The notes under the pieces: model-generated
What the model saw: only the letters and a program-made list of their open reading frames with translations
Database searches by the model: none
What the model was told of the DNA's origin: nothing
Shown here: positions 5,540 to 63,795 of the stretch, piece by piece
Layout: each line of letters opens with the position of its first letter
Numbering within the stretch: position 1 is the first letter of the stretch
Assembly: GCF_004358325.1 (NCBI RefSeq)
Contig: NZ_CP037940.1
Span: forward strand, 2,604,001-2,668,000
Reading direction: 5' to 3'
DNA length: 64,000 bases
DNA from: Periweissella cryptocerci
GTDB lineage: Bacteria > Bacillota > Bacilli > Lactobacillales > Lactobacillaceae
Position numbers and translations under genes: made by a program

Positions 5540-5785
5540 TGATTTGGTGGTTGGTTCCACTTCGTGCCTGGAAATTGCTTGGCGCACTGCGCTGGAAGCA
5601 CATGTTCAAGCCAAAGGGCGGTCTTGAACAACTCGGACAAGCTGGGACTCTAGGGGATAAATCCCCAAGACTCCTCATCTCATCCTCAGCGGAAATATGT
5701 GCTGCACACATATTCCCCCAGTCGCGGTGTAAAGGCTGCGCCCGCCAAGCAATTTCCAGCCACTTCGTTGGTTTTCAATAAATCA
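5540..5785 (+). repeat. Solo core module A1 of the structured repeat family
   Basis: The core is 5566-5761 (196 bp) and is flanked by exact ACTTCGT copies at 5559-5565 and 5762-5768. The terminal stem pairs GCCTGGAAATTGCTTGGCG with CGCCAAGCAATTTCCAG. Inside are the TTCAAG/CTTGAA hairpin, a GGGG-ATAAAT-CCCC hairpin and the ATATGTG/CACATAT hairpin, followed by CGCGGTGTAAAGG. Unlike A2-A4, it lacks the GTGGGATT arms; TGATTT (5540) and AAATCA (5780) close the outside instead. It lies directly behind patA and may act as, or replace, its transcript end. Confidence 0.85.
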
Positions 5786-5952
5786 CTGACTAGCTTTAAT
5801 ATGGTAGTTACACATTATTTGGCGGAAAATTCCGCTTTCTTGGAGTAATGGTGTAGTCGAGTATGCAGCCTGTAGCACTGATCAAATTAGAATAACATTG
5901 CCAATTCTTGCGAATAAATATGATAGTACATTAAAAGAAAAAGGGGTAGCTG

Positions 5953-7014
5953 ATGGTAGGATATAATGTAGCGATTTTAGGGGCCACGGGAGCGGTTGGT
6001 ACGCGGATGATTGAGCAGCTTGCGCAATCTTCAATTGAGGTGGCGAGTTTGAAATTGTTGGCTTCAAAGCGGTCAGCTGGGCAAACCCGTGAATTTAAGG
6101 GGCGCACGCTGATTATCGAAGAAGCGACGCCGGATAGTTTTTCGGGCGTGGATTTGGTATTTTCTTCAGCGGGTGGGTCTGTATCAGAAGCTTTGCTGCC
6201 AGAAGCGGTCAAACGTGGGGCGGTCTGTGTGGATAATACGAGTGCCTTTCGGATGGATCCGGCTGTGCCGTTGGTGGTGCCTGAGGTGAATGCGGATGAT
6301 TTGAATTGGCATCACGGGATCATCGCTAATCCGAACTGTTCGACGATTCAGATGGTGGTGGCGTTAGCGCCGATTAAAGCGCAGTTTGGTTTGGAACGAG
6401 TGATTGTTTCTACGTATCAAGCGGCTTCAGGTGCTGGGCAAAGTGCTTGGAATGAATTGAACACTGAAGCACAGGCACATTTGAATGGTGAAACGATGGA
6501 TGCGCACATTTTGCCGGCGAAGGGTGACAAGCGGCATTTTCCCTTAGCGTTTAATTTATTGCCGCAAATTGATGTCTTTGAAGCGGATGGTTATACGCAT
6601 GAAGAATGGAAAATGATTCACGAGACGAAGAAAATTTTGTTGGGTGATATGAATGCGAAGGCGCTCAAAGTTACGGCGACATGTGTCCGCGTGCCCGTTG
6701 GGATTGGACATGGAGAAACTGTGTATTTTGAAACGAGTGACGAAGCGGTTACGGCTGCGCAAATTCAGCATGCCTTAGCCAATGGTGCGGGCGTCGTGTT
6801 AGAAGATGATCCAGCCACCCAAACATACCCAACGCCATTGACGGCAGCTGGCAAGCGTGAGACGTTTGTTGGCCGTGTGCGTCCCGACCTTGAAGTTGAT
6901 GGGGCGTTCCACATGTGGGTCGTTGCTGATAACTTGCTCAAGGGTGCCGCTTGGAATGCCATTCAAATTGGTGAAACCTTAGTGGCACGTGATTTAGTGC
7001 GAGTGTCAGCGTAA
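5953..7014 (+). CDS. asd: Aspartate-semialdehyde dehydrogenase
   Basis: Asd reduces aspartyl phosphate to aspartate semialdehyde, which feeds DapA and also threonine and methionine synthesis. The N-terminal VAILGATGAVGTRM is the NADP-binding loop, NPNCSTIQM holds the catalytic cysteine, and VRVPVGIGHGE is the substrate-binding segment with its histidine. At 353 residues it is full length. ATG 5953 follows AAAAGGGG. It has its own upstream region (5786-5952) and an intrinsic terminator, so it forms a separate transcription unit from the dap genes, although it is functionally linked. Confidence 0.96.
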   Translation: MVGYNVAILGATGAVGTRMIEQLAQSSIEVASLKLLASKRSAGQTREFKGRTLIIEEATPDSFSGVDLVFSSAGGSVSEALLPEAVKRGAVCVDNTSAFRMDPAVPLVVPEVNADDLNWHHGIIANPNCSTIQMVVALAPIKAQFGLERVIVSTYQAASGAGQSAWNELNTEAQAHLNGETMDAHILPAKGDKRHFPLAFNLLPQIDVFEADGYTHEEWKMIHETKKILLGDMNAKALKVTATCVRVPVGIGHGETVYFETSDEAVTAAQIQHALANGAGVVLEDDPATQTYPTPLTAAGKRETFVGRVRPDLEVDGAFHMWVVADNLLKGAAWNAIQIGETLVARDLVRVSA

Positions 7015-7031
7015 TTAATGACGTAAATGAG

Positions 7032-7064
7032 TGAAGCTTGTCCAATTTGGGCGAGCTTTTTTTG
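7032..7064 (+). terminator. Intrinsic terminator of asd
   Basis: AAGCTTGTCC and GGGCGAGCTT form a hairpin that is followed by seven T. The T-run leads straight into the left end of repeat B1. Confidence 0.85.
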
Positions 7065-7066
7065 TT

Positions 7067-7629
7067 CTATTTCGTTTGACGTAGAATTTATAAAATGTGA
7101 TAGATGTAGGATGTCACTGCGTGCCAGAAAATCACATTGTGCACCGAGATGGAAGCACATGCCCAAGCCACGTGCTTATGCCTGAGATACGGCAACGCAA
7201 AACATTCCAGCGGTTTGTTTTCAACAAACAACTGAATCTAATCAAAACCCGATTAGATTAGCCTTCCAGGCTGAATGTCTGTCTTGGGCAATTCGGGATA
7301 GCTGGCAGTCTAATGGCTAAAGCCAAAAGACTGCTCATCTACCCTCAGCGACAAACTCGACACGTGGTGTCAAGTTCGTCCCATCACGTTGTAAAGCCTG
7401 CCGGCCACAAGGTGATTTTCAGTCACTCCGCTAGATAAGCGTGGAATTATTGATTACCGCTAAACTTGTAGTGACAAGGATTACGGCATATTACTAGTCA
7501 GACTGCCTGCTCAAACTAACGAAGAGGATGGAAACGGGCTTGTCTTCGATCATGACGGTGTCCAGACTGGTTCCAGCCTCGTAGTGGGAATCAATTTGAG
7601 ACACATATCCAAATTCCACGCTAGATTTT
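7067..7629 (+). repeat. Two-core structured repeat element B1
   Basis: The outer inverted repeats are TTTGACGTAGAATTT at the left (7073-7090) and AAATTCCACGCTAG at the right (7610-7624). Core 1 (7123-7424) is set between ACTGCGT and ACTCCGC and has an AAAATCAC/GTGATTTT terminal stem, a CCCAAG/CTTGGG hairpin and the ATCACGTTGTAAAGCCTGCC block. A second core in the opposite orientation (about 7513-7587) is shortened to its ends, AACTAACGAAGAGG and CCTCGTAGTGG, with a short centre. No protein is encoded. It sits directly behind the asd terminator. Confidence 0.85.
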
Positions 7630-7769
7630 GCATGTTATCGCAAATATTTGTAACTCGTCGTATTTTGCTACGGGTTTGCTGGGGTGTGGATTATTATCAA
7701 TATATTGATTGATAGCAATTATACAGGTGCCTTGGTGCTAGTGAATTTATGGAAAATGAGGAAGAAATA

Positions 7770-8267
7770 ATGATGATGAATGTGTTGATTGGTGTAGTGG
7801 TGATGGGATTTGTTTTGGCGCGGCAATTGCGGGTGCGCGAGGTCGAAAATAAGTGGGTGGCGCAATTTATCATGGGGGGTATTGGGTTTGTTGGTTTTCT
7901 CGAATTTTTGCAACACCAAAGTATGCAACAACCAATGGCGAGTTTGACATTAGTGTTAGTTGTGTTGGGCAGTTTAGTGCTTGCGGTTGCGACGGCGTTT
8001 GTGCGGGTACCAAGCTATGAAGTGACGGTCGTTGATGGCAAAGTATTTCGCAAAGGGACGGTCAAATCAGTGATTTTGTGGTTGTTGACGATTGTCTTGC
8101 ACGTGGGTTACGACCAATTGGTTACGCTATTGCATGTACCAGGGATGGCAGCGGTCGGGACGTCAACGTTATTGATTTATTTAGCGGTGTCATTTGGGAT
8201 GCAAAAATTCTTGATTTTAAAGCGCGTTAAGGGCGAAAGTTGGGGCGCAACGGTAATTGATGCCTGA
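7770..8267 (+). CDS. Hypothetical integral membrane protein
   Basis: The protein is not recognised. The roughly 165-residue product has five hydrophobic segments (near the N-terminus, about 40-60, 65-85, 105-125 and 135-150), with short basic loops and a charged middle loop rich in V, R and K. It resembles CcdC/DUF1453-like membrane proteins only in general layout. Several in-frame ATGs exist. The one at 7770 (or 7773) is preferred because GAGGAAG lies five to eight bases upstream, whereas the ATG at 7749 has no such site. It overlaps the following small gene by eight bases, so the two are probably coupled. Confidence 0.7.
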   Translation: MMMNVLIGVVVMGFVLARQLRVREVENKWVAQFIMGGIGFVGFLEFLQHQSMQQPMASLTLVLVVLGSLVLAVATAFVRVPSYEVTVVDGKVFRKGTVKSVILWLLTIVLHVGYDQLVTLLHVPGMAAVGTSTLLIYLAVSFGMQKFLILKRVKGESWGATVIDA

Positions 8268-8415
8268 TGTGATTACGCGCGAAATCCATGGATTTATTAC
8301 ACTATGGCAGCTGTTAGGTTATGATTCAGGGAGTCGCCACGTTGAAGTCGTTGACCGGGTCGATGCCCAGACGTTAAAGGCGCTGAAGCAATATGCCATT
8401 AACATGCTTGACTAG
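8260..8415 (+). CDS. Small hypothetical protein, 51 residues
   Basis: A short frame starts at ATG 8260 inside the end of the membrane protein gene and stops at TAG 8413-8415. The product begins MPDVITREIHGF and ends with an amphipathic helix (TLKALKQYAINML). Its codon use resembles that of the neighbours. Overlapping start and stop signals suggest translational coupling. No family is recognised. It could be a non-functional frame, but the tight overlap and protein-like composition favour a real gene. Confidence 0.5.
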   Translation: MPDVITREIHGFITLWQLLGYDSGSRHVEVVDRVDAQTLKALKQYAINMLD

Positions 8416-8499
8416 GCTTTCTCAACGTTGAGTATTACAATAGAAATAAATGCGCCTAAAATGTTGGCAAATCAGTCAGTATTTGTGGTGGTGTCAAGA

Positions 8500-8600
8500 A
8501 TTATTCCTTGTCAGGGTACGGCAGGCATGGTAAGATATTCTTTGGCTACAAGCCCATATTAACGATGTTGCGCTGCTAGGTACTGCCATCAATGTCGAAA
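8500..8600 (+). promoter_or_regulatory. Candidate ribosomal protein L19 leader
   Basis: The segment directly upstream of rplS contains GGCTACAAGCCC, GCGCTGCTAGGTACTGCC and other pairing stretches, ending at the Shine-Dalgarno ACAGGAG. A structured autoregulatory leader is known ahead of rplS in Firmicutes, and this region is in the right place and has that general character. The assignment rests on position and hairpin content and has not been checked against a covariance model. Confidence 0.45.
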
Positions 8601-8614
8601 CAGGAGATTTAATC

Positions 8615-8968
8615 ATGAAGCAAAACCAATTACTTGAATTGATCACTAAGGATCAAATCCGCGAAGACGTTCCAGCATTCCGTGCCGGTGACTCTGTCCG
8701 CGTTCACGCCCGTATCGTTGAAGGTACTCGCGAACGTGTGCAACTCTTCGAAGGTGTTGTTATTAAGCGCAAGGGTACTGGTATCCAAGCTACTTACACT
8801 GTTCGTAAGATTTCTAACGGTGTTGGTGTTGAACGTACTTTCCCATTGCACTCACCACGTGTTGACAAGATCGAAGTGACTCGTCACGGTCGTGTTCGTC
8901 GTGCTAAGTTGTACTACCTCCGTGCATTGCACGGTAAGGCTGCCCGTATCAAGGAAGCCCGTCGTTAA
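8615..8968 (+). CDS. rplS: 50S ribosomal protein L19
   Basis: This component of the large ribosomal subunit lies at the subunit interface. The 117-residue protein carries the family blocks [45 protein letters not shown] and the basic end RRAKLYYLR. Codon use is clearly more biased than in neighbouring genes (CGT, GGT and AAG preferred), as expected for a highly expressed gene. It is monocistronic here, with a candidate structured leader and a strong terminator. Confidence 0.98.
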
Positions 8969-8981
8969 GATAACTTATAAG

Positions 8982-9013
8982 AAAACCTCATCAATTACGA
9001 TGAGGTTTTTTTG
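8982..9013 (+). terminator. Intrinsic terminator of rplS
   Basis: AAAACCTCATC and GATGAGGTTTT form a perfect hairpin followed by a T-run. The T-run runs into the left end of repeat A2. Confidence 0.9.
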
Positions 9014-9018
9014 TTGCT

Positions 9019-9399
9019 CTATTTCGTCTGACGTGGGATTGAATAAACTTGGCCACTGCGTGCCGGTAAATTACTTGGCGCACCACGTCGGAAGCGCATG
9101 TTCAAGCCAAAGTGCGGTCTTGAACAACTCGGATAAGCTGGGATTCTAAGGAATAAATTCCTAAGAATCCTCATCTTATCCTCAGCGGAAATATGTGCTG
9201 CACACATATTCCCCCAGTCGCGGTGTAAAGGCTACGCCCGCCAAGTAATTTACCGGTACTTCGTTAGTTAGGAATATTGCTCAAACGAGCGAAAAATAGT
9301 TACCAAATGCAGGTCGCAGCAGGAAAAATGGCATATAGAATCTCAGTAATTCGATGCTTGAAAAGTACAGAAACGATAATCCCACGCTAGAATAAATAG
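9019..9399 (+). repeat. Complete single-core structured repeat A2
   Basis: The left end GTCTGACGTGGGATT (9026-9040) and right end AATCCCACGCTAGA (9378-9391) form an inverted repeat. It extends outward through CTATTT to the TTTTTTGTT of the rplS terminator and AACAAAAAA at 9400-9407. The core is 9062-9257 (196 bp), between ACTGCGT (9055) and ACTTCGT (9258). The terminal stem is GCCGGTAAATTACTTGGCG/CGCCAAGTAATTTACCGG. The inner hairpins match A1, A3 and A4 with paired substitutions. The right arm (9265-9377) also occurs, without any core, at 52634-52750 on the other strand. This is the best-preserved reference copy. Confidence 0.88.
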
Positions 9400-9482
9400 A
9401 ACAAAAAATGATATATTATTGAGGAATAATAATGTAGCTATGCTAATACGTATACTATGTTTAATTAGGAGAAGTAAACATA

Positions 9483-9878
9483 ATGGAAGTTCAAATTGTT
9501 ATTTCAGAAGGATTTGAAAGTCAACTGGTTAATGAGGGACAGACTCTAAATAAGGTTGTATCACCAACTTTAGTCTTAGGCGCCCGAGTTATCCCTACGG
9601 CGTTGTCATTTTCATTGAGTGTTTTTGTAGCTAACTTTGAGGATATTACTTCTTTTGAATTGGGATTAAAGGTTATCAATCTGAAAACGGACGACGTGGT
9701 TTTTGAATTACCAAATACTGATGTCCAACTCGATCCGAAGATGAATAGCGTTAATATGAATGCTGATTTGCGAAATGTTTTTATCGCAAATGCAGGTGCA
9801 TTTAAAGCAGTTGCTACGATTGATGGAATGGAGTACAGCCAAAAGTTTTTCGTTGTGGAAACGGATGTCTCAAAGTAG
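9483..9878 (+). CDS. Hypothetical protein, first gene of a HEPN-associated cassette
   Basis: The protein is not recognised with certainty. The 131-residue product is predicted to be mostly beta strands (alternating hydrophobic residues through FSLSVFVANF, FELGLKVINL and AFKAVATIDG), without a signal peptide or cysteines, suggesting a small cytosolic Ig-like or DUF6941-like fold. ATG 9483 follows TTAGGAGAAGTAAACATA. Twelve bases separate it from the next gene, and the third gene carries a broken HEPN domain, so the three probably form one unit. The predicted fold is inference. Confidence 0.65.
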   Translation: MEVQIVISEGFESQLVNEGQTLNKVVSPTLVLGARVIPTALSFSLSVFVANFEDITSFELGLKVINLKTDDVVFELPNTDVQLDPKMNSVNMNADLRNVFIANAGAFKAVATIDGMEYSQKFFVVETDVSK

Positions 9879-9890
9879 GAGGTTTATCAC

Positions 9891-10271
9891 ATGTCATTTC
9901 AAAAGAATATTAGTTTGACTGGTACAGCTGCCCTTACTACGACACTTGTTTTTGGCACGCAAATGATTACGTTGCCGAGTGCAGATGCTAGTACCTCAGT
10001 AAAGACACCGACACATGAGATGAAAATTAATGAGGGTGTCTCGAATAATTTCACCCCTGATAGGTCCTTACTTGCAAAGTTAGATGATCAATTTGGTCAA
10101 AATCAATATCACTATGAATATGATTCTGACGTCCAGAAAATGGTATTTACAATTAACACCAGTAGGTCATCATTTGACACCGATTTTGACAAATTGAACG
10201 AGGTGGATAGTTGGATGGTTGAACATAACTTGAATCATTTATATCTGCTTGAACTTGATGAGGATGTATAA
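9891..10271 (+). CDS. Hypothetical protein, second gene of the HEPN-associated cassette
   Basis: The protein is not recognised. It has 126 residues. The first 30 or so (ISLTGTAALTTTLVFGTQMI, then ADAST) could be a weak signal peptide or membrane segment. The rest is acidic, with FTINTSRSSFDTDFDKLNEV and an ELDEDV tail. ATG 9891 has AGGAGG nine bases upstream. Its stop overlaps the ATG of the HEPN gene (TAATG), so translation is coupled. It may be a partner or neutraliser of the HEPN protein; that is inference from context. Confidence 0.6.
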   Translation: MSFQKNISLTGTAALTTTLVFGTQMITLPSADASTSVKTPTHEMKINEGVSNNFTPDRSLLAKLDDQFGQNQYHYEYDSDVQKMVFTINTSRSSFDTDFDKLNEVDSWMVEHNLNHLYLLELDEDV

Positions 10272-10684
10272 TGTATGACTTTTTTAAATTCTACACTTTT
10301 GCCAGTAACGAGTATAAAGATGGAAATATAAAAGATGAACTAAGCCGGAGAATAATGATTTCTCGTGCATATTATGGGATTTATTACACCGTGCGTCGTG
10401 TAACTGGGGGACTAATTGGGCAAGTAAACCCTGATTATTCTGGCGGGAATTCGCATACGGGTATGTGGCAAGCCCTAGAATCTAGTAAGTATAGGTAATG
10501 GCAAACACCTGAAATAGAACAAGTTGGCACTTTGGGTTTGAAACTTATGCGTAAGCGAATTAAGGCTGATTATAAGGACGGCGAAGTTACTGATGTAGAT
10601 GTACGTTTTGTCATAAAAAATTCAGAAAAGATAATTGAGTTGTTAGATATTGACGCAACAAATTTTTCTGTGGGTGATAGATAA
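10271..10684 (+). pseudogene. HEPN-like protein broken by an in-frame stop
   Basis: The frame from ATG 10271 gives 75 residues ending at TAA 10496-10498. The same frame then continues for another 61 codons to 10684 with sensible protein (WQTPEIEQVGTL, then LMRKRIKADYKDGEV). The N-part contains SRAYYGIYYTVRR, and the C-part has the R-x-x-A-D-Y pattern seen near the end of many HEPN-domain proteins. A single nonsense change would turn a roughly 137-residue HEPN protein into this. It may be inactivated, read through, or a sequencing error. HEPN proteins are often RNases in toxin or defence systems. Confidence 0.65.
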
Positions 10685-10760
10685 TGTATTGAATGAGGTT
10701 CTCTAATTGTGCGAACCTAACGTATTTTGCAGAAGTGCTGGCTTTATCAGACAAGAGAAC

Positions 10761-10796
10761 ACGCTAATGCTTTTTAATAAGTATTAGCGTTTTTTG
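10761..10796 (+). terminator. Intrinsic terminator after the HEPN cassette
   Basis: ACGCTAATGC and GTATTAGCGT pair and are followed by six T. Confidence 0.85.
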
Positions 10797-10966
10797 TTGC
10801 ATAATCCGCAACTGTAACCACAAGCACATTGATTGGATATGTCTGAAAATGTCCAATTTGGTAAAAAATATCAAGCATTTTTGGAGTCTGTTATAATTAA
10901 GGTAGCTTGATTTTGATGATGTAATTTAGCAAACGTTATTTTGAACGTGAAAAGGGGATACGAATT

Positions 10967-11191
10967 ATGGCGGAATTAAAATTTGAAATTACAGAACACA
11001 TTGCGACCTTATCGACGAATGCCAAAGGATGGACGACGGAATTGAATTTGATTTCGTGGAATGACCGTGATCCTAAATTGGATATTCGTTCGTGGGATCC
11101 TGAACATGGCAAGATGGGGAAAGGTATTACGTTGACTCCCGATGAAGCCAAGGAACTGCTCAGCGGTTTGCAAAAATTGATGATTGATTAG
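10967..11191 (+). CDS. ydbC: YdbC-type single-strand nucleic-acid-binding protein (PC4-like)
   Basis: The 74-residue protein matches the short bacterial PC4/YdbC family: beta-rich FEITEHIATLSTNAKGWTTE, then LNLISWNDRDPKLDIRSWDP and a C-terminal helix TPDEAKELLSGLQKL. Family members dimerise and bind single-stranded DNA, and they are linked to transcription and repair. ATG 10967 follows AAAAGGGGA. It stands alone, with a separate small membrane protein gene 36 bases downstream. Confidence 0.85.
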   Translation: MAELKFEITEHIATLSTNAKGWTTELNLISWNDRDPKLDIRSWDPEHGKMGKGITLTPDEAKELLSGLQKLMID

Positions 11192-11227
11192 CATGCGAAC
11201 TTGGGCTGCTGAAAGAAGGAGGACCTG

Positions 11228-11515
11228 ATGGGAATAATTGCGGCGATAATAATTGGCGTGGCGAGTTTCTTTAACTATACTGCTTATGTGAATGGGGATG
11301 ACTCGTTACAATTTGTCATTCAAGGGGTCGTTTTAGCGATTCTTGGGGTGATTGTGTTGGTGAGTTATCAAGGCGTGCGATTGAAAAAATACGCGTGGGA
11401 ATGGTATAGCAATTTTACGTTGGGGTACGGGATCGTTATCTTGGCGTTCCTGGGTAGTTTGACGACGGGCGTTGTGCTGGTTTTGAACTATGCGGGGATT
11501 ATTAATAGTTTGTAA
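11228..11515 (+). CDS. Small hypothetical membrane protein, 95 residues
   Basis: The family is not recognised. Three transmembrane segments are visible (about residues 2-20, 28-48 and 62-90), separated by short loops, with Lys/Arg between the second and third. The start has a very good Shine-Dalgarno (AAGGAGG at 11215-11221). Its stop lies about 30 bases before the start of the acetyltransferase gene, so the two may be co-transcribed. Confidence 0.75.
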   Translation: MGIIAAIIIGVASFFNYTAYVNGDDSLQFVIQGVVLAILGVIVLVSYQGVRLKKYAWEWYSNFTLGYGIVILAFLGSLTTGVVLVLNYAGIINSL

Positions 11516-11546
11516 AGAATTGTACAAGTTTATGAGGGAGCAGCTG

Positions 11547-12731
11547 ATGATTGAAAAATTAACTAAAACTGACTATGCAGAGCTTTTTGCATTAATCAAA
11601 TATGCGTTTCATAAAGTACCAACCGGTGGGGAGACGGCGTTTAATTTTTTTGCTGAACACTCACTTAATTATAGTTTTAAAAGTGACGGCAAAATTTCAA
11701 GTGATGTGATTGTGACGCCATTTGATGTCGATTTCTGGGGTACGACATACAAGGCAACTGGGATTGGGTATGTGGCGAGTTATCCGGAGACACGCGGGAA
11801 TGGTGGTATTCGTGAACTGATGGCGCGAATTTTGGATGATGAATATGCAGATGGGGTGGTCATTTCGTATCTGGCACCATTTTCATATGGGTTCTATCGT
11901 CGGTTTGGCTATGAACAAATTTTTAATCATATGCAGCTGACTTGGGCGGCGTCCGATTTCCCCCATGGTGCCAAAACGGCAGGTGACATCAAACGGTTGT
12001 CATTTGATGAGGCGCAACCACTGATGGCCGCAGTCTATCGTGACAATCCGGAAATGCACCGCGGTGCGCTTAAACGGGCATCTTGGTGGTGGCAATATTG
12101 GTATGGCAAGAAGTTAGCTGGGCTGAACTTTGCGATTTATTTTGATGATGCGGGGCAACCACAGGGTTACGTGATTTATAACTTTGATGGAATGAATTTT
12201 AATATCAAAGAATGGGTGAACACTACGATGGCCGCGCAAAATGCGACGACGCGGTTCATTCAAAGTCACGCGGGGGCATTCGATACGTTCACGTACGTCT
12301 CGCCACAAAGCGATGCGACAAAGATTCGGGTCTTGCAGCAAATGCCTGAGCCTAATCGTGCCAAGGCGGAACTCGTACCAGATATGCAGGCGCGGATTGT
12401 GAATTTGGTAGAATTTTTGAACCAGTATCCGGTGCGTAATTATGTATCGCGTAGTTTTGTGATGGCCGTGCATGATGACAATGCCACTTGGAATGACGGT
12501 GCGTTTGCAGTTGCCGAAAACTGGCAAACGCAAAAACTAGCGACACCACCTGCCGAAGCCGAAGTTGATTTCAGCACTGATATTCAAGCGCTGACACAGT
12601 GGCTGATGGGGTATCGGACATTTGCCGAGTTAGTGTTTGCTGGCCGAATTACGGTCGCGGAGGATTTGGATGTCGCAGAATTTGACCGGCTGGTGCAAAT
12701 TGAGAAGCCGATATTGGCGGATTATTTCTAG
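11547..12731 (+). CDS. Eis-like GNAT acetyltransferase
   Basis: The protein is a roughly 394-residue acetyltransferase of the Eis family: an N-terminal GNAT domain with the acetyl-CoA region YPETRGNGGIRELM (about residues 80-95) and SYGFYRRFGYE, a second GNAT-like region, and a C-terminal sterol-carrier-like domain (about 290-394). Family members acetylate amines, including aminoglycosides in mycobacteria; the substrate here is unknown. The start is set at ATG 11547 because GAGGGAG lies seven bases upstream; the frame is open further upstream but without a better start. A strong terminator follows. Confidence 0.85.
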   Translation: MIEKLTKTDYAELFALIKYAFHKVPTGGETAFNFFAEHSLNYSFKSDGKISSDVIVTPFDVDFWGTTYKATGIGYVASYPETRGNGGIRELMARILDDEYADGVVISYLAPFSYGFYRRFGYEQIFNHMQLTWAASDFPHGAKTAGDIKRLSFDEAQPLMAAVYRDNPEMHRGALKRASWWWQYWYGKKLAGLNFAIYFDDAGQPQGYVIYNFDGMNFNIKEWVNTTMAAQNATTRFIQSHAGAFDTFTYVSPQSDATKIRVLQQMPEPNRAKAELVPDMQARIVNLVEFLNQYPVRNYVSRSFVMAVHDDNATWNDGAFAVAENWQTQKLATPPAEAEVDFSTDIQALTQWLMGYRTFAELVFAGRITVAEDLDVAEFDRLVQIEKPILADYF

Positions 12732-12736
12732 TAAAT

Positions 12737-13663: not shown

Positions 13664-13665
13664 TT

Positions 13666-14550: not shown

Positions 14551-14556
14551 TTATGC

Positions 14557-14934
14557 TTTATTCCGTCTGATGTGGGATTGCATAGACTTGGCCACTTCGT
14601 GCCAGCAAATTGCTTGGCGCACCACGCTGGAAGCAACCTCACAAGCCAAAATGCGGTCTTGTGAGGTTCGGATAAGCTGGGGGACTCTAAGGAATAAATT
14701 CCTAAGAGTCCTCATCTTATCCTCAGCGGAAATATGTGTTTCACGCATATTTCCCCAGTTGCGGTGTAAAGGCTACGCCCGCCAAGCAATTTGCCGGCAC
14801 TTCGTTAGTTAGGAATAATGGTCAAACTAGTAAAAAATAGGTGCGGTAGCATGGAAAAAATACGGACAATAGAACCACTGTGATTTGATGATTGAAAAGT
14901 GCAGAAACGACAATCCCATGCTTGAATAAATGGA
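14557..14934 (+). repeat. Complete single-core structured repeat A3
   Basis: The left end is GTCTGATGTGGGATT (14565-14579) and the right end AATCCCATGCTTGAATAAATGG (14912-14933). The core is 14601-14798 (198 bp), bounded by identical ACTTCGT copies at 14594 and 14799. Its hairpin reads CCTCACAAG/CTTGTGAGG where A1 and A2 read TTCAAG/CTTGAA, a multi-base compensatory change. GGACTCT/AGAGTCC here is GGATTCT/AGAATCC in A2. It lies between the SMR genes and a terminator. Confidence 0.88.
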
Positions 14935-14947
14935 ACTGTTAATTATG

Positions 14948-41260: not shown

Positions 41261-41304
41261 TATTTTCTAGCGCGGGATTGTCGCTTCTGTACTTTTCAAT
41301 CAAT
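41261..41304 (-). repeat. End fragment of a structured repeat arm
   Basis: TTCTAGCGCGGGATTGTCG and CTTCTGTACTTTTCAAT match the right end of A2/A3 read in reverse (for A3, GATTGAAAAGTGCAGAAACG then ACAATCCCATGC). The rest of the element is missing. It lies directly behind a gene. Confidence 0.7.
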
Positions 41305-41313
41305 CGCAAATCC

Positions 41314-41356
41314 AAAAAAGTTCAGCACATCCCAAGATGGATGCGCTGAACTTTTT
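41314..41356. terminator. Bidirectional terminator
   Basis: AAAAAGTTCAGC and GCTGAACTTTTT form a long stem with A and T runs on both sides, serving the plus-strand gene and the convergent dsdA. Confidence 0.85.
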
Positions 41357-41374
41357 CATTTGGTTACGTAATTA

Positions 41375-45869: not shown

Positions 45870-46186
45870 TTGACAATCGTATGTAGTGGGCTTAAACTGA
45901 TGGCAATCACTTGCGATGAAGAGATAAGTACTTGATTAACATTGGCGCCAGCGAGCGTTCATTTGGTGAAAGAACGCCCAATGTGATTTTGGAAAATGGT
46001 CTTGGAGCAAACGGAATGTGAGCAAGATGTTGTTAGCATTCCCCGGGATACGCCCGTTATAGCGTGCCGAGTTAACGCTAATTATGGTTGACTTGATGAG
46101 GTTGCCCTAGTGATTGGGCAATAAACGCAGGTGGTAACACGAGTAAATTCGTCCCGCAGTCTAAAATTTTAGGCTGCGGGATTTTT
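45870..46186 (+). promoter_or_regulatory. T-box riboswitch, probably methionine-specific
   Basis: A promoter-like TTGACA (45870) and TAAACT (45893) precede the leader. Stem I has GATGAAGAGATAAGTA and GCGAGCG-like motifs. A likely specifier ATG lies at 45996-45998 in GGAAAATGG, fitting methionine. The T-box sequence GCAGGTGGTAACACG (46127-46141) follows, and then the terminator CCCGCAG/CTGCGGG with six T (46153-46187). The downstream gene is a MetE-like enzyme, in agreement. Repeat A4 begins immediately behind the T-run. Confidence 0.88.
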
Positions 46187-46189
46187 TGG

Positions 46190-46515
46190 CTCCGTTTTGT
46201 CTGACGTGGGATTGGATAAACTTGGCCACTTCGTGCCGGTAAATTGCTTGGCGCACCACGCTGGAAGCGCATTGCCAAGCCGAAGTGCTGTCTTGGCAAA
46301 CTCGGACAAGCTGGGACTCTAAGGAATAAATTCTTAAGACTCCTCATCTCATCCTCAGCGGCGACATGTGTTACACACATATCACCCCAGCCGCGGTGTA
46401 AAGGCTACGCCCGCCAAGCAATTTACCGGCACTACGTTAGTTAGGTATAATGCCAAATCAGCGGAAAACTAGTACCAAGCACAAACCGCAGTGGCATGGG
46501 AAAAACACTGGGGGC
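46190..46515 (+). repeat. Single-core structured repeat A4, right end lost
   Basis: The left end is GTCTGACGTGGGATT (46199-46213). The core is 46235-46430 (196 bp) between ACTTCGT (46228) and ACTACGT (46431), with terminal stem GCCGGTAAATTGCTTGGCG/CGCCAAGCAATTTACCGGC and hairpin TTGCCAAG/CTTGGCAA. The right arm follows to about 46515 and then breaks off before the GTGGGATT inverted end. A tandem GAATTTATAACAAAC pair (46519-46551) follows. It lies between the T-box and the metE-like gene. Confidence 0.85.
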
Positions 46516-52570: not shown

Positions 52571-52608
52571 ACGATGAAATCACACCAAGATTTCATCGTT
52601 TTTTTTTT
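52571..52608 (+). terminator. Intrinsic terminator of the NlpC/P60 gene
   Basis: ACGATGAAAT and ATTTCATCGT form a perfect stem followed by a run of ten T. It continues into the end of an inverted repeat element. Confidence 0.9.
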
Positions 52609-52609
52609 G

Positions 52610-52796
52610 CTATATTTTTTCTACCGTGGGATTGTCGTTTCTGTACTGTTTAATCATCCAATTACTGAAGTTCAATTGTCAGTGGTTTTTCCATGCTACT
52701 GCGACCGGTGGTTGGTAACTGCTTTTTGCTAGTTACATTATTCCTAAGTAACGCAGTGGCCAAGTTTATTCAATCCCAGTCAGACAGAACGGAGCC
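52610..52796 (-). repeat. Structured repeat arms without a core (empty site)
   Basis: Read on the minus strand, this copy runs GTCTGACTGGGATTGAATAA, then ACTTGGCCACTGCGT, then directly TACTTAGGAATAATG and the right arm to AATCCCACGGTAGA. The roughly 196 bp core seen in A2 between ACTGCGT and the TTAGTTAGGAAT flank is absent, and a single ACTGCGT (52751-52757 on the plus strand as ACGCAGT) remains. The left and right inverted ends are both present. It shows what the element looks like before core insertion or after clean loss. Confidence 0.85.
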
Positions 52797-55532: not shown

Positions 55533-55645
55533 CTAGTTTAATTGATGTTCCAATTAAACTCACCAACATTTACTGGATGCTTCATCCAAAACCGCTTTAA
55601 CTACCAAAAAACTTGTGTTACACTCAATTGGTAATCAAATATTAT

Positions 55646-55786
55646 GCACTAGGGGTGCCGTTTAGCGGCTGAGAGACAATGTCGACCCTTTGAACCTGTT
55701 GAGTTTGAACTCGCGTAGGGAAGTGGTTAAACATTGGCAGAGTGCCGCTGTTTGGCTGTCTTTATGCAGTCGAACGGCGGTTTTTT
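55646..55786 (+). promoter_or_regulatory. TPP riboswitch with terminator
   Basis: The THI-box blocks are present in order: CACTAGGGGTGCC (55648-55660), GGCTGAGAG (55667-55675), ACCCTTTGAACCTG (55685-55698), then GCGTAGGGAAGTGG (55713-55726). The outer stem pairs CACT with AGTG. The terminator hairpin GCCGCTGTT/AACGGCGG and six T follow (55744-55786). It controls thiW, whose product imports a thiamine precursor. Confidence 0.95.
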
Positions 55787-56488: not shown

Positions 56489-56542
56489 ACACGTAACAAT
56501 TGACCGCAAATAAGCGGTCAGTTCCGATAGATTTTTAAATAA

Positions 56543-56588: not shown

Positions 56589-56589
56589 G

Positions 56590-56907
56590 ACGTTCACGTC
56601 TGACGTGGAATTTATAAAATGTGATGAGATGTATGATGCTGCTGCGTGCCTACTCAAACTAACGAAGAGGCTGGAAACAGGCTGGACTTTAGCTCGCACC
56701 GTGATGGCATAATCAGTAACGGGTTTCGTTACTGATTATGGATTTGTGAAGATGGTTACCGCGTTAGCGAACCAAGCTTCGCAAACATTTGAAGACCGCA
56801 CTGTGGCTTCAAATGCTTGTCTTCCATCACGGTGTCCAGACTGGTTCCAGACACGTAGTGGGAATCAATCTGAGACGCATATCTAAATTCCACGCTAGAA
56901 AAAAATA
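56590..56907 (-). repeat. Structured repeat with a single inverted core
   Basis: The left end GTCTGACGTGGAATTT (56598-56613) and right end AAATTCCACGCTAG (56885-56898) are type-B arms. The only core (56668-56852) lies in the reverse direction, between AACGAAG and ACGTAGT. It is almost identical to core 2 of B3 at 63576-63760. Core 1 is missing. Hairpins CATAATCAGTAACG/CGTTACTGATTATG and CATTTGAAG/CTTCAAATG are clear. It sits directly behind the thiW terminator. Confidence 0.87.
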
Positions 56908-57020
56908 GCCCTTTTTTGATGCTTGATTTTAATGTTGTTAATTAGCTTATTGCGTATGACAAATCTTTTAATTGCTACATGCAAACAATGGGTTAAATAC
57001 GCCCGAATTACATAAATTTC

Positions 57021-57056: not shown

Positions 57057-57109
57057 ATGGCACACAAACATTGTGCTTAGAAGCATAGAAAGTTGGTGAA
57101 ACTTTGAAT

Positions 57110-57508: not shown

Positions 57509-58361
57509 TAAACATGTCGTATTGAATGACATTAGTTTTACGGTTAAGCAAGGTGAAGTTTTAGGAATTATTGGGCGGAATGGGGTTGGTAAAACAACGT
57601 TATTTCGGACGATGATGGGGCAATATTTGGCGGATCAAGGAACCGTGGGAATTGATGACCAGCTGGTTAGTGATGATTTGGAATTACGGCAAAATATGTT
57701 CTTTATTGATCAGCAGAATAATTATTTGACGGATTATACGCCAGCGCAGATTGCCAAGATGTATAGCTTGTTATACGACAAGTTTGACAGTGACCGATTT
57801 TTGACGGTAGTCCAAGAGCATCATTTGCCAATGGATAGTCGTTATCGTAGTTATTCAAAGGGGATGCAGGGGCTATTTAACGTCTTGTTGGCGCTTGCCT
57901 CGAAAGCCCAATTCATAATTTTGGATGAACCACTCGATGGCTTGGATGTATTAGTGCGAGAAACGGTGAAGCGCGTTTTGATAGATGCAGTGCAAACACA
58001 ACATATTAGTATTTTGATTTCATCGCATAATTTAACGGAATTGGATACATTGATTGATCGAGCAATTATATTGGCTGACGCGCGCATTGCCCGTGAGTAC
58101 ACATTGGAATCATCGCGTGAAAATGCCCGCAAAATTCAATTAGTATTTCGTGAAGAAACCCCGGATTTCATTAGTGAATATGGAACGATAGTTGAACAGC
58201 GGGGGCGCGTTATTGTTGTGGTATTCAACGACTATAACCGCAAAATTGATGAAATGATCGCGCATAGCGCACCGTTGTTATTTGAAGATTTACCATTGAA
58301 CTTGGAGGACTTGTTCCGGACGACGCTGGTTAATGAAGCGGATTATGTGTTGGAAAAGTAG
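57471..58361 (+). CDS. ABC transporter ATP-binding protein
   Basis: The 296-residue ATPase has Walker A IGRNGVGKTTLFRTMMGQ (about residues 34-51), the signature YSKGMQGLFNVLLALA (about 125-140; SKGMQ in place of SGGQ, usual for YtrB/EcsA-like exporters), Walker B FIILDEPLDGLD and the switch histidine in ISSHNLTEL. A C-terminal extension of about 90 residues is present. ATG 57471 follows GGGGGAAATC. It is followed by its membrane subunit after ten bases. Confidence 0.92.
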   Translation: MELKVNNLAKMINKHVVLNDISFTVKQGEVLGIIGRNGVGKTTLFRTMMGQYLADQGTVGIDDQLVSDDLELRQNMFFIDQQNNYLTDYTPAQIAKMYSLLYDKFDSDRFLTVVQEHHLPMDSRYRSYSKGMQGLFNVLLALASKAQFIILDEPLDGLDVLVRETVKRVLIDAVQTQHISILISSHNLTELDTLIDRAIILADARIAREYTLESSRENARKIQLVFREETPDFISEYGTIVEQRGRVIVVVFNDYNRKIDEMIAHSAPLLFEDLPLNLEDLFRTTLVNEADYVLEK

Positions 58362-58371
58362 GGGGAACGAA

Positions 58372-59496
58372 ATGAAGTTATTTAAATTATTATGGCAACG
58401 TTATAAAGTGCTTGTCTTAACTGTGATGATAGTGATTGTGGGAAGCTTTGCAGTCACCACGGCCAATGATATTCATCAATGGAATCAAGCTAATGTGTAT
58501 CTGCACTCAGAAAAATTTGCGCAACAATATACTGCGCATCCAGATGATTTTGATAGCTCGGTGCTAAATGATGATAGCAAAGTCGTGCAAAAACGAGTGA
58601 AGCCAATTAGTGAGATTCAAAAGCGGGGAACGGCGAAATTCTGGAATAATCAATTTAGTTATGCAGGTCCCCACAATTTGCGAAATATGCCACTCGAACC
58701 GTCGCTTTTTGTCTTAGCAATGATTTTGGTAGCGACATTTGTCTTACTGGTGATGGACACAGCCAAGAATTTCAATAGTCTATTATTCGCATCGCGGTAC
58801 AAAAGGATATCAATTTTTTGGACTAAATTAGCAATTATTGTTGGTCTACCAACGTTATTGACGGTAATTGGTGAGGTACTGTACTTTGGTGCAATCTATC
58901 TCGCAATTCCAAATAGCGCATATAACGTTGGTGGGTATCTTACACCGATAAATGTGTTAGCAGTTAGCGCGTTCTTTATATTCGGAATTGGTTTGATTGT
59001 GTTAACTACGCAAATTATTGGCCAAACCCTGTGGGCGTTGATTTTAATTGGTGGCTTTGGTTTGTCGACAATTTTCTTTGCCCATGCGGTTAGCAATGTT
59101 TATCTCGACGTCGCAACAAACGTCCTGCATATGTCGACAACGGCGGCGCTTTCGATGATGGATAATCTGTTAACAGCGCAACGAATATTGATTATTGTGT
59201 TTGTGGTAGGTGTAATTGGTATCGTTTTTGCAAGCATTTTGTACAGTCGCTTCTCGTTTGAACGCAATGGTGATTTTGTAATGTTTGAAAAACTGAAGTG
59301 GCCCCTGTGGATTACCACTTTGGTATATACAACGTTCTCGATTAGCGAAGAAGTACAACCGTGGAACAACGGCTATATGCGCGCACAAATGGTGTATGTT
59401 ATCTTGACGATTGGGGTGATTGTCTTTATCAATGCCGTGATGTTCATCTTAATTTTTAAACCACGTGTTGGCTGGTGGCACCGTAAAGTGGCATAA
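58372..59496 (+). CDS. ABC transporter permease subunit
   Basis: The membrane protein of about 374 residues has one N-terminal helix, an extracellular loop of about 75 residues with a KRVKPISEIQKRGTAKFWN stretch, then about six further helices. It resembles YtrC/D-type exporter permeases that work with the preceding ATPase. ATG 58372 follows GGGGGAACGAA. The substrate is unknown. Similar units answer to cell-wall-active antibiotics in Bacillus, but that is by analogy only. Confidence 0.85.
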   Translation: MKLFKLLWQRYKVLVLTVMIVIVGSFAVTTANDIHQWNQANVYLHSEKFAQQYTAHPDDFDSSVLNDDSKVVQKRVKPISEIQKRGTAKFWNNQFSYAGPHNLRNMPLEPSLFVLAMILVATFVLLVMDTAKNFNSLLFASRYKRISIFWTKLAIIVGLPTLLTVIGEVLYFGAIYLAIPNSAYNVGGYLTPINVLAVSAFFIFGIGLIVLTTQIIGQTLWALILIGGFGLSTIFFAHAVSNVYLDVATNVLHMSTTAALSMMDNLLTAQRILIIVFVVGVIGIVFASILYSRFSFERNGDFVMFEKLKWPLWITTLVYTTFSISEEVQPWNNGYMRAQMVYVILTIGVIVFINAVMFILIFKPRVGWWHRKVA

Positions 59497-59504
59497 CCAT
59501 ACAA

Positions 59505-59550
59505 AATGGCTCGATTTCTCCTTAGTGATCTAAGGGGAAGTCGAGCTATT
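59505..59550 (+). terminator. Hairpin after the ABC operon
   Basis: ATGGCTCGATTTCTCCTTAG and CTAAGGGGAAGTCGAGCTAT form a 20-bp stem with few mismatches. The T-run is short (TTTG), so terminator strength is uncertain. Confidence 0.6.
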
Positions 59551-59707
59551 TGCCGTGAGGTGAAAAGCCCGCATTGAGACGAAATTTTTGTAAAAGTGGC
59601 AACGTTAAGTCGCGTAAATTGTGTGTTAATTTGCAGAGGAGTAAAATTTAATTAGATAGTAAACGAATGCAAATATTGCAAAAAATTTAGAAAATGGGGA
59701 AAGTAAA

Positions 59708-60907
59708 ATGAAACGATTTATAAAAATTCCGATGATTTTAGCGATGTTATTGGTAATGGCAATTTGTTTTGTAATGAATGCACCGAATGTTTCGGCGAGC
59801 ACGTATAACAAATATTACACCGTAACCAACACCAATAAGAATTCCATTAAGAAAAAACATTTCGTTCACGATGGCGATATTCTGTGGGATGACACGACAT
59901 ACCATTACCAAGCTATCTCTTCATTGCCATATATGTATTTTATCTCCGTTGATGAGGCTGATTGGCAGTGGGCGGATGATTCAATTGAGGATTCTAGCGG
60001 CGTGATTTTCCCAACCGTCGATGAGTTTTTGTATGGCGCGAAGGGTGATTACCGTGTTTGGTACAATTCACATGCTAAACCAACCGCATACGCATATGTG
60101 AAGAATAGCAACGGGAAAATTGTTAAAACGTACAAAATTGGTCAAACTGCTAAAAAAATTAAGATTAAATCAAACCAAAAATTAAAGCTAAGCCATGCCA
60201 AAGCCACCCGGCAAAAAGTGACAGTGCGAATTAAGTACAAAAATAGTTGGACGGGTTCAACGATTAGTTCGAAAAAATATCGGATTAACAAAGGTAGTAT
60301 TAAGCAAATAAAAACGGTTCGTGTAGCCGGTTACCAACCGAAGAAAATTAACAAAAAATATGTGATTAACAAGCGTAAGACATTGACGTTTAAATTAATG
60401 CCAAAAAAGGCGTGGGTCAGTGTTAAATTTGTTAATAGTCGCAACGCTAAATTAGTGGCAACTAAAAAATATCTGACAAAGCCGTACGCCAAGAAGTACA
60501 TTGCAACCTTTTCAAAGGTGGGGTATCAAGTGAAAAAAGGTGCTACTTATCGAATTAATAATAAAGTGTTAACTGTGAAAGTAGTGCCCAAGCAATTTGT
60601 CTATACGATTAAATATCAGCTGAAAACTACAGATGTTGATGACGGTTATAATGAAACGATTAAATATACAACGCTTGAAAAAGGGCAGAAATCGGTCTAC
60701 TATGACCAGCGATTTGTCTATACACAAACGGACGTTGATTATACGGGGGTGTTAAGCTACAAGGGTACAGATTATTTTCCAACTGGGAATCCGCTTGCGC
60801 TCCAGAATTATGACAATAGTAAGTATGAATATCACACGACGGTAACTGGTGATAAGGTTATTACATTCAAGTTTTCCGATGATGGGGGGGATTGGGACTT
60901 TCAATAA
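59708..60907 (+). CDS. Secreted protein with MucBP-like repeats
   Basis: The 399-residue protein has a signal peptide (about 1-31, ending NVSAS) and a unique N-domain (about 35-155) with tryptophans. After it come three repeats of about 65 residues, each with a VxVRIKYKN- or VSVKFVNS-type strand, a KKYRINKG-like turn and a final TLTFKLMPK-type strand. The body is strongly basic (Lys-rich). No LPxTG or membrane anchor is seen, so positive charge may hold it at the wall. GGGGAAAGTAAA precedes the ATG. The role is unknown. Confidence 0.7.
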   Translation: MKRFIKIPMILAMLLVMAICFVMNAPNVSASTYNKYYTVTNTNKNSIKKKHFVHDGDILWDDTTYHYQAISSLPYMYFISVDEADWQWADDSIEDSSGVIFPTVDEFLYGAKGDYRVWYNSHAKPTAYAYVKNSNGKIVKTYKIGQTAKKIKIKSNQKLKLSHAKATRQKVTVRIKYKNSWTGSTISSKKYRINKGSIKQIKTVRVAGYQPKKINKKYVINKRKTLTFKLMPKKAWVSVKFVNSRNAKLVATKKYLTKPYAKKYIATFSKVGYQVKKGATYRINNKVLTVKVVPKQFVYTIKYQLKTTDVDDGYNETIKYTTLEKGQKSVYYDQRFVYTQTDVDYTGVLSYKGTDYFPTGNPLALQNYDNSKYEYHTTVTGDKVITFKFSDDGGDWDFQ

Positions 60908-60979
60908 ATAGTAATACGTGATTCAGCAAAATATGCCATTAATTAGGTGGCAAATCGAACTTAATCGCGAGAAACTTGA

Positions 60980-61009
60980 GAACTGAGGGAAATCCTTAGT
61001 TCTTTTTTT
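60980..61009 (+). terminator. Intrinsic terminator
   Basis: GAACTGAGG and CCTTAGTTC pair and are followed by seven T, ending the secreted-protein gene. Confidence 0.8.
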
Positions 61010-61184
61010 CGCATTTACTGGTAAAATTATATAGTTAAGGTAAAGTACGGAATATTTTTATAGCAAATATAAAATTTCGGTTAGTCGTGCAGGTACTTTT
61101 TGACTGTCACGCTGTTCGTTAATCAAAATAAATTAAACTGCTGGTTATTTAGATACCAGCCTAATGAGAAAGGACGTCGCTTAA

Positions 61185-63029
61185 ATGAATTTAGAAGAAA
61201 TGCGAGAACGTCAAAAACATATTCGGAACTTTAGTATCGTCGCCCACATTGATCACGGTAAGTCGACCATTGCTGATCGTATCTTAGATTTAACCCACGC
61301 AATTACGGCCCGTGAAGCGCAAGACCAACTTTTGGATTCGATGGAGCTTGAACGTGAACGTGGCATAACTATCAAGATGAACTCCGTCGAATTGCACTAT
61401 GACGCTGAAGATGGTGAAACTTATGTCTTTCACTTGATTGACACACCAGGTCACGTCGATTTCCAATATGAAGTATCCCGGGCACTTGCTGCTGGTGAAG
61501 GGGCGGTCTTAGTTGTTGATGCGGCCCAAGGGGTTGAAGCCCAAACCTTGTCAAACGTTTACTTGGCGATGGACAATGATTTGGAAATCGTGCCTTTGAT
61601 TAACAAAATTGATTTACCAGCTGCTGAACCGGAAAAAGTTCGCGCTGAAATCGAAGACGTCATCGGAATCGACGCTTCTGAAGCAGTTTTGGCTTCCGCT
61701 AAGCAAGGTATCGGCATCAAGGAATTGCTTGAACAAATCGTGAAATCAGTGCCTGCGCCAGAAGGTGACATTGAAGCACCATTAAAAGCGTTGATCTTTG
61801 ATTCAGCTTACGATGCGTATCGTGGGGTTGTATTGACAGTCCGTGTGCGTGAAGGAATTGTGCGCGTTGGTGACAAGATTAAGATGATGCACTCTGGTGC
61901 GGAATTTGAAGTCACTGAAGTCGGCGTTAACTCACCAAAACCGGTTCCCCGCGATTACTTGGGTGCCGGGGATGTTGGTTATATCACCGCAGCTATCAAG
62001 GACATCAAGAGCACGCGTTCTGGGGATACTATTACGCACGTGAAGAATCCCGCTGCTGAACCTTTGGAAGGTTACCGGACGATGAAGCCAATGGTTTATT
62101 CTGGTTTGTATCCAACCGATAACGCCAAGTTCACGGATTTGCGCGAAGCCCTTGAAAAGCTCCAACTTAATGACGCTGCCTTGGAATTTGAACCAGAAAC
62201 ATCACAAGCTTTGGGCTTTGGTTTCCGGACGGGATTCTTAGGATTGTTGCACATGGATGTTGTGCAAGAACGATTGGAACGTGAATTTGACCTCGACTTG
62301 ATCACGACGGCGCCTTCCGTGACCTACAAGGTTACCAAGAACGACGGCACACAAGTTGAAGTGGCTAACCCAGCCGAAATGCCAGAAGTTAGTTCAATTC
62401 GTTTTATCGAAGAACCTTATGTCCATGCTAATATCATGGTGCCTAACGAATATGTTGGGGCGGTCATGGATTTGGCACAGCGCAAACGTGGTGAATTTGA
62501 TACGATGGATTACTTGGATGACTCACGGGTTAACGTGAAGTACTTCATACCATTGTCAGAAATCATCTTCGACTTCTTCGATAAACTCAAGTCAAACACG
62601 CGTGGGTACGCTTCATTGGATTATGAAGAAGCTGGCTACCGTCAATCTGACTTGGTAACAATTGATATCTTGTTGAATTCTGAAAAGGTCGATGCTTTGA
62701 GTTTCATCGTGCACCGTGATTTTGCCGCTGAACGTGGGCGTATTATTACTGGTAAGCTGAAAAACATCATTCCCCGCCAGAACTTTGAAATTCCAGTGCA
62801 AGCAGCCATTGGGGCCAAAATTATTGCGCGGACGAATATCAAGGCCTACCGTAAGGATGTTACCGCTAAGATTCACACCGGTGATCCTGACCGTCGTGCT
62901 AAGTTGTTAGACAAGCAAAAACGTGGGAAAGCCCGGATGAAGTCGGTTGGTACCGTTGAAGTACCGCAGGAAGCCTTCATGGCCGTTCTTAAAACTGAGG
63001 ACGATGATGAGTTCAAGAAGGGTCACTAG
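61185..63029 (+). CDS. lepA: Elongation factor 4
   Basis: This ribosomal GTPase helps stalled or incorrectly translocated ribosomes and affects initiation. The 614-residue protein has all G motifs ([21 protein letters not shown] and NKIDLP), domains II and III, and the LepA-specific C-terminal domain with [19 protein letters not shown] and the [10 protein letters not shown] end. GAAAGGACGTCGC precedes ATG 61185. It is monocistronic. No clear terminator is visible before repeat B3. Confidence 0.98.
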
Positions 63030-63079
63030 ACTAGTTTTTAGTAGCCATTGAATTTGCCGTCATAAGTTTAAAACAGGCT

Positions 63080-63795
63080 CTATTTCGTCTGACGTGGAAT
63101 TTATAAAAAGTGATGAGATGTATGATGCCACTGCGTGCCTGAAAATCACATTGTGCACCGAGATGGAAGCACATGCCCAAGCCACGTGCTTATGCCTGAG
63201 ATACGGCAACGCAAAACATTCCAGCAGTTTGTTTGTAACAAACAACTGAATCTAATCAAAAACCGATTAGATTAGCCTTCCAGGCTGAATGTCTGTCTTG
63301 GGCAATTCGGGATAGCTGGCAGTCTAATGGCTAAAGCCAAAAGACTGCTCACATTTGTAGCTACGCTGGACAAATAAGGCCCGGTCGGCTCTACCCCTCA
63401 GCGACAAACCCGACACGTGGTGTCAAGTTCGTCCCATCACGGTGTAAAGCCTGCCGGCCACAATGTGATTTTCAGTCACTCCGCTAGATAAGTGTGGAAT
63501 TATTGATTACCGCTAAACCTACAGCACAGGATTACGGCATATTACTAGTCAGATTGCTTGCTCAAACTAACGAAGAGGCTGGAACCAGGCTGGACTTTAG
63601 CTCGCACCGTGATGGCATAATCAGTAACGGGTTTCGTTACTGATTATGGATTTGTGAAGATGGTTGCCGCGTTAGCGAACCAAGCTTCGCAAACATTTGA
63701 AGACCGCACTGTGGCTTCAAATGCTTGTCTTCCATCACGGTGTCCAGACTGGTTCCAGCCTCGTAGTGGAAATGGATCTGAGACACATAGCCAAA
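63080..63795 (+). repeat. Two-core structured repeat B3, right end lost
   Basis: The left end is GTCTGACGTGGAATTT (63087-63102). Core 1 (63137-63477) matches B1 core 1 but has a roughly 40-base insertion near 63350-63392 that contains ATTTGT/ACAAAT. Core 2 (63576-63760) lies in reverse and is nearly identical to the core at 56668-56852. The right arm stops at about 63795, where AAATTCCACG should begin, and passes directly into a terminator. It is the longest copy in the window. Confidence 0.87.

Follow-up and report, generated by a model that had tools for sequence, protein, structure and literature searches.

Miniature ISL3-type elements with a structured passenger core in the genome of Periweissella cryptocerci

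The single-contig, 3.02-Mb genome of Periweissella cryptocerci contains a family of short repeats, noticed from sequence alone (hereafter the original prediction) in a stretch of 64,000 nucleotides (NZ_CP037940.1, bases 2604001-2668000; hereafter the window, in whose own numbering positions are given) as outer arms and inner cores combined in several ways. The arms are the ends of miniature inverted-repeat transposable elements (MITEs) of ISL3-family insertion sequences (IS) found in the same genome. We consider it probable, at roughly four chances in five, that the repeats are non-autonomous MITEs moved in trans by the ISL3 transposase of that genome, that they hold a passenger core, and that core-free copies arose by deletion. 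This reading builds on the identity of the ends, the target duplications, the compensatory changes in the core and the distribution described below, for which mobilization in trans and deletion by slippage would account. The genome's own ISL3-family transposase would recognize terminal repeats that differ slightly between the left (GGCTCTATTTCGTCTGACG...) and the right (...CGCTAGAATAAATAGAGCC), and would insert the unit, with its ~200-nucleotide (nt) passenger core, with duplication of 8 bp of the target. Replication slippage between the imperfect ACTNCGT repeats that flank the palindromic core may then produce arms-only copies, and deletion within the core may leave stem-only scars.

The ISL3 transposase domain PF01610 has 22 matches in the window genome, several of them fragments. 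Six matches lie in IS copies that measure 1530-1537 bp and have the ends GGCTCTATTCCGTCTGACGTGGG / GGCTGTATTTTTTTTAGCGTGGG; identity to the copy in L244 is 96.4-99.2% for the other five. Perfect 8-bp target duplications flank all six, three hold a stop-free frame of 483-484 amino acids, and the transposase scores 249.9 bits against the NCBIfam ISL3 model NF033550 (cut-off 180). The MITE arms and the IS have the same ends, including the difference between left and right (GTCTGACG vs TTCTAGCG / TTTTAGCG); the interior of the A-type MITEs is, by eye, not a shortened IS interior. The MITE boundary was located separately by scanning offsets 0-23 and lengths 7-9 at 56 arm pairs, which placed the edge 11 nt outside the arm motif of the original prediction on both sides, with 8-bp duplications (at least 7 of 8 positions) at 14 of the 56 pairs against 0.35 in shuffled sequence; 7-bp windows at neighbouring offsets gave 16/56 against 0.7, as expected for parts of an 8-bp duplication. 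When this boundary was applied to 72 arm pairs, which largely include the previous 56, all 8 positions matched in 10 and 7 of 8 in 6 (shuffled 0.19 and 0.46), that is, 16/72 against 0.65 in total. The ends shared with the IS and the independently found 8-bp boundary together indicate that the arms are the ends of ISL3-type MITEs. Targeting of terminators by the MITEs was not supported, T-runs of at least 5 being present in 16/72 left and 14/72 right flanks.

These elements are abundant. The exact core motif has 90 matches in the window genome and the arm ends have, with up to three mismatches, 157 (left) and 82 (right), all reversed-pattern controls giving 0. R1, a core covariance model derived from 51 copies, matched all 150 candidates scored out of 1534 found at first look, and because only these 150 were scored, the true number of cores may be higher. 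Both ISL3 ends accompany 29 of the 51 exact-motif cores of this genome and at least one end accompanies 43.

Within the window, direct and inverted repeats and the covariance model recovered the predicted family at the following loci.

5564-5763, plus strand: core of type A without ISL3 ends, with its own outer stem AGTGATTT...AAATCACT (read directly); R1 235.3 bits; hairpin motif at 5609-5624, with 6/6 stem pairs formed.
7063-7636, plus strand: B-type MITE with ISL3 left end at 7063, core with inserted hairpin module 7121-7426, reverse-orientation core fragment 7503-7546 and right end TTCCACGCTAGA (right boundary by eye).
9015-9403, plus strand: A-type MITE with left end 9015-9041, core 9060-9259, right arm and right end 9377-9403.
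14554-14937, plus strand: A-type MITE with core 14599-14800 and ISL3 right end 14911-14937.
41262-41302, minus strand: isolated right-end fragment of a MITE (about 41262-41364 by repeat search).
46188-46495, plus strand: A-type MITE with core 46233-46432.
52584-52790, minus strand: arms-only MITE (about 52584-52756 by repeat search) with junction CACTGCGTTACTTAGG, no core and a right-type end at 52608-52634.
56590-56911, plus strand: MITE with a single reverse core 56667-56854 (minus strand), a degenerate left B-type end and right end 56885-56911.
63076-63807, plus strand: B-type MITE with left end, core with inserted module 63135-63479 (plus strand) and reversed core 63575-63762 (minus strand).

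A terminal-repeat scan of the window with up to 8 mismatches, which gave 0 matches in one shuffled window, placed ISL3-type left ends at 7063, 9015, 14554, 46188 and 63076; it found no right end for the MITEs at 46188-46495 and 63076-63807, and the left end at 56590, which retains only CGTCTGACGTGG, falls under its threshold. R1 found six plus-strand and two minus-strand cores in the window, and also matched four of the plus-strand cores on the opposite strand, as palindromes do. In two window cores (about 7172-7270 and 63183-63280), as in L034, L036 and L049, the hairpin loop is replaced by a module of ~100 nt (GTCTGTGCTTATGCC...GGATGTCTG or a relative), and some other cores have an extra stretch inserted at CTCA^CATTTGTAGC. 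The units are short (about 100-744 bp) and contain no transposase gene; a single open reading frame of at least 100 codons overlaps a window MITE (100 amino acids, 46078-46380, minus strand).

Much of the original prediction holds at this level: the cores inside arms at 9062, 14601 and 46235 were retrieved by the covariance model between or beside ISL3 ends, the core-free arms at 52610 and the end fragment were found again, the conserved inner blocks and ACTNCGT flanks are as described, and the picture of a modular, MITE-like and BOX-like element that encodes no protein is upheld. Other points had to be amended. The loci said to have doubled cores (7123 and 63137) do contain two cores or parts of cores, but the second is in reverse orientation, as is the core placed inside arms at 56668; the solitary core at 5566 does lack ISL3 ends, yet it is enclosed by its own outer stem; and the divergent core proposed at 639 gave no R1 match at E<=5.

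The core is a separate module of ~200 nt in which a long terminal stem closes a branched fold. In the alignment of cores from the window genome, 97.8% of cells are paired and 24 of the 63 pairs changed on both sides; none of 500 shuffles reached the covariation score. Among 22 distant matches in other genera, pairing is 92.8% (55.5% when shuffled) and 59/63 pairs show changes in both partners; the remaining four, which are constant, are the inner pairs of one hairpin. This invariant hairpin has a 6-bp stem, AGCC-RAAGNGC-GGUCU, with a bulged U (motif AGCCRAAGNGCGGTCT). Its stem positions 3-6 are paired in 78-93% of 139 sequences of other genera, against a maximum of 46-71% in 200 shuffles, positions 1-2 being partly fixed by the search pattern that gave these sequences; in a search that selected for the stem rather than the motif, 116 matches keep AGCC, GG, the bulged T and CT almost always, and the reversed motif gave 1. 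The GC content of the core (0.48-0.55) exceeds that of genome stretches (0.40-0.44), so that it departs from the AT-richness expected of MITEs, which the part of PMC10969869 consulted calls 'typically' AT-rich. The Rfam covariance search suggested by the original prediction gave no core match at the gathering threshold (Rfam 15; the window and six loci of other genera), and at E<=5 only microRNA and small nucleolar RNA noise, or nothing; literature searches turned up no description of the core. The original prediction recognized no described family: this does not hold for the arms, which are ISL3-family IS ends, and together with the modularity they are of a known kind (ISL3 MITE, BOX-like), but as far as we searched it does hold for the core.

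Copies restricted to one strain, an outcome that would have told against the original prediction, were not what we found. Of 397 family genomes, 51 contain the hairpin motif, the window genome among them; they span 7 of 40 genera, with up to 125 copies per genome (G346), although the motif is absent from all four congeners, whose genomes measure 1.8-2.0 Mb; further members of these genera also lack it, and the reversed pattern had 2 matches over the whole set. The core covariance model, with 6 candidates scored per genome, has matches in at least 31 of the 397. Across the order, 395 genomes were scanned, of which 73 belong to the family and 322 do not; the hairpin occurs in 12, only one of which lies outside the family (G538, one copy, in which a C is unusual). 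A scan of a named collection, described as covering 84,980 species, with a 20-base motif gave at least 100 stretches, all those listed being titled Lactobacillaceae; among the matches listed, most are from Levilactobacillus, and Secundilactobacillus, Lactiplantibacillus, Pediococcus argentinicus, Companilactobacillus nantensis and unclassified lactobacilli also occur. The plasmids, phages and viral contigs searched gave no core match. Names inferred for genomes of the family set are L. brevis CD0817 (G233, with 86 hairpin matches), L. tongjiangensis (G355), L. yonginensis (G364), Lactiplantibacillus fabifermentans (G311) and Pediococcus argentinicus (G047).

In these other genera the core has other ends. 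Levilactobacillus units of about 595 bp have the ends CTAAAGGTTGAAA (CTAAAGG) and duplications of 7-9 bp; the one followed in full, in L. tongjiangensis, contains two cores facing each other. Among 143 cores of other genera, both CTAAAGG ends were found for 16 (0 in the scrambled control) and one or both for 33 (0-2), and perfect duplications of 7-9 bp flank 9 of the 16 units (0.5 when shuffled, maximum 3). Fourteen of these units are from Levilactobacillus, one from Lactiplantibacillus (L090) and one from a genome of a further genus (G332, genus g4); relaxed motifs number two in 9 units, three in one and one in six. Comparison of L. tongjiangensis with L. yonginensis revealed empty orthologues of two filled sites, judged by eye and with other rearrangements nearby. 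None of the 51 exact-motif cores of the window genome has CTAAAGG ends. Since the core lies in units with other ends in other Lactobacillaceae, it behaves as a portable module. It may be, at somewhat less than even odds, an undescribed, Lactobacillaceae-specific structured module that functions as a folded nucleic acid, is carried on unrelated transposon ends in up to about 100 copies per genome, and has an invariant hairpin recognized by a host or element protein.

The ISL3-less core of the window lies in a unit (5513-5830) whose outer sequence, TTAAAGGTTGATTGAGTGATTT ... AAATCACTGACTAGCTTTAA, is similar to the CTAAAGGTTGAAA ends found in other genera; around it we saw no target duplication. 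Tandem core units 274 bp apart were found in L. lanxiensis (L223, about 4395-4870), and tandem repetition also occurs in L178. A CTAAAGG pair of Companilactobacillus nantensis (L224) was not counted, as it does not enclose its exact hairpin motif. A 736-bp insertion in L. tongjiangensis (contig C23, 58298-59034 of the joined stretches) with a 7-bp overlap was set aside as, by eye, an IS605/TnpB-like remnant outside the core family; this remnant is polymorphic between L. tongjiangensis and L. yonginensis.

Arms with and without a core share one exact junction. The original prediction proposed a nested mobility of arms and cores, in which the core itself would be mobile, inserting site-specifically into arms at CACTNCG^T, possibly via a single-stranded hairpin intermediate; besides the common junction, the presence of the core in two arm types here and between other ends elsewhere, as well as the window core without ISL3 ends, would fit such a scenario. 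However, the repeats flanking the core read ACTRCGT on the left in 50/53 cases and ACTYCGT on the right in 52/53, with the same N in only 4/53, and because the two N differ we rejected the ACTNCGT pair as a target duplication of the core. Moreover, five clean core-free copies carry N = C, A, G, T and G (the last being the window copy), thus including the right-hand-type C and T, which insertion into virgin arms would not give, and the handful of polymorphic sites inspected are insertions bounded by terminal inverted repeats, a tandem duplication or truncations, with no clean core insertion among them. A mobile core therefore appears improbable. Deletion would yield core-free copies with either N, because crossing-over anywhere in the repeat would give such copies, and four further copies keep stem remnants; since deletion explains the empty and scarred arms, a second mobility is not needed, and independent core mobility is not supported.

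Several observations weigh against ISL3-type MITEs with a portable, folded passenger as a full account of these repeats. The reading frames are interrupted in three of the six IS copies; 56 of the 72 arm pairs lack a clear duplication, which is expected of old copies but is no proof; 11 of the 72 units match neither the core-filled nor the core-free layout; and 8 of the 51 exact-motif cores of the window genome have no recognizable ISL3 end on either side. None of the four congeners compared has a copy. In other genera, 127 of the 143 cores lack both CTAAAGG ends within the span searched, indicating that most cores elsewhere have ends not yet recognized, and in L. tongjiangensis we saw no autonomous CTAAAGG partner (no plus-to-minus pair at 0.8-2.5 kb among 90 matches, by eye). 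As to the fold, the alignment of the 22 distant matches (A2) was fitted to the model, and many alignment rows are related copies.

Two further explanations concern whether the core acts as RNA or as DNA. In the first, the core would be a functional RNA, for example protein-binding or regulatory, its many copies being kept by selection. The invariant hairpin argues for this, with a bulged U in 116/116 stem-selected matches (reversed-motif control 1) and with stem positions 2-6 occupied by all four Watson-Crick pairs, far in excess of shuffles at 3-6, as does the leading-strand orientation of 123 of 150 cores of the window genome (origin near 1.6 Mb by GC skew). This orientation bias is common to five of the six IS copies, so that its cause may lie outside the core. 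At seven tandem lagging-strand gene pairs, a set enriched for exceptions and based on simple-script reading frames, three cores follow the genes and four do not; either transcription or replication may cause the bias. On the other hand, promoters sought in the MITE-A consensus with up to three mismatches numbered 0 on the minus strand and three (each with 3 mismatches) on the plus strand, none convincing. The complementary strand folds better in 51/51 and 132/160 cores, part of which is composition because shuffles shift likewise; in relatives, departures of the A-C kind outnumber those of the G-T kind (44 vs 21 by cluster, p 0.006), and in the window genome the two kinds occur in similar numbers (G-T 34, A-C 37, from 85 and 37) if one invariant pair, worth 51 cells, is subtracted. 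The better fold of the complementary strand and the A-C excess in relatives give a hint that any RNA fold forms from the strand opposite to that read first, or that the structure has its role at the DNA level. We regard a functional RNA as plausible at somewhat less than even odds.

In the second explanation, the stems would be kept perfect by DNA-level template switching between palindrome arms at replication, without selection on RNA. The terminal stem of the relatives has no G-U among 15 pairs in 22 sequences (18 cells unpaired, 21 gapped), which is unusual for RNA evolution, and its double changes without G-U intermediates fit such correction, a mechanism that is on record as a proposal in the part of PMC8794818 consulted. 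Template switching leaves unexplained why the hairpin's loop and bulge are invariant and why the branched plan stays constant between genera, and we regard it as plausible at somewhat less than even odds.

With ISL3-family IS and IS-derived MITEs, the ISL3-type elements share asymmetric terminal repeats, the 8-bp duplication, small size without a transposase and autonomous-looking copies in the same genome; unlike IS-derived MITEs, they have as their interior a conserved folded core, GC-richer and with relatives in other genera. The closest precedent, compared on architecture only and as far as the part of PMC3049150 consulted goes, are the BOX elements of Streptococcus (boxA/boxB/boxC, and boxE/boxF in S. 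suis). These likewise combine modular outer and inner parts for which folds were proposed, the inner module being absent, single or repeated; the tandem core repetition in L178 and L223 resembles that of boxB, and S. suis boxAC and boxEF place one inner module inside different outer ends (PMC3049150, same part), as the present core does. Unlike BOX, the outer ends here match a transposase-bearing IS, and the core is branched and found in Lactobacillaceae. REP and REPIN elements (RAYT) also have many copies, intergenic hairpins and an inverted pairing comparable to that of the double-core units, but the present elements have terminal inverted repeats and target duplications. REP elements measure some tens of nucleotides, and the present cores about 200. 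One module with one conserved fold thus links MITEs with unrelated ends, which makes it testable whether a MITE interior is selected for its own structure or is leftover transposon sequence, and provides a data set for separating RNA selection from DNA-level palindrome repair.

Two further structures lie in the window. Directly upstream of the MITE at 46188, positions 46060-46187 (GGTGGTAACACG ... CGTCCCGCAG and a terminator) have the look of what we take to be a T-box-type leader, Rfam being silent there at the gathering threshold. A TPP riboswitch (RF00059, 62.4 bits) is located at 55641-55738 on the plus strand.

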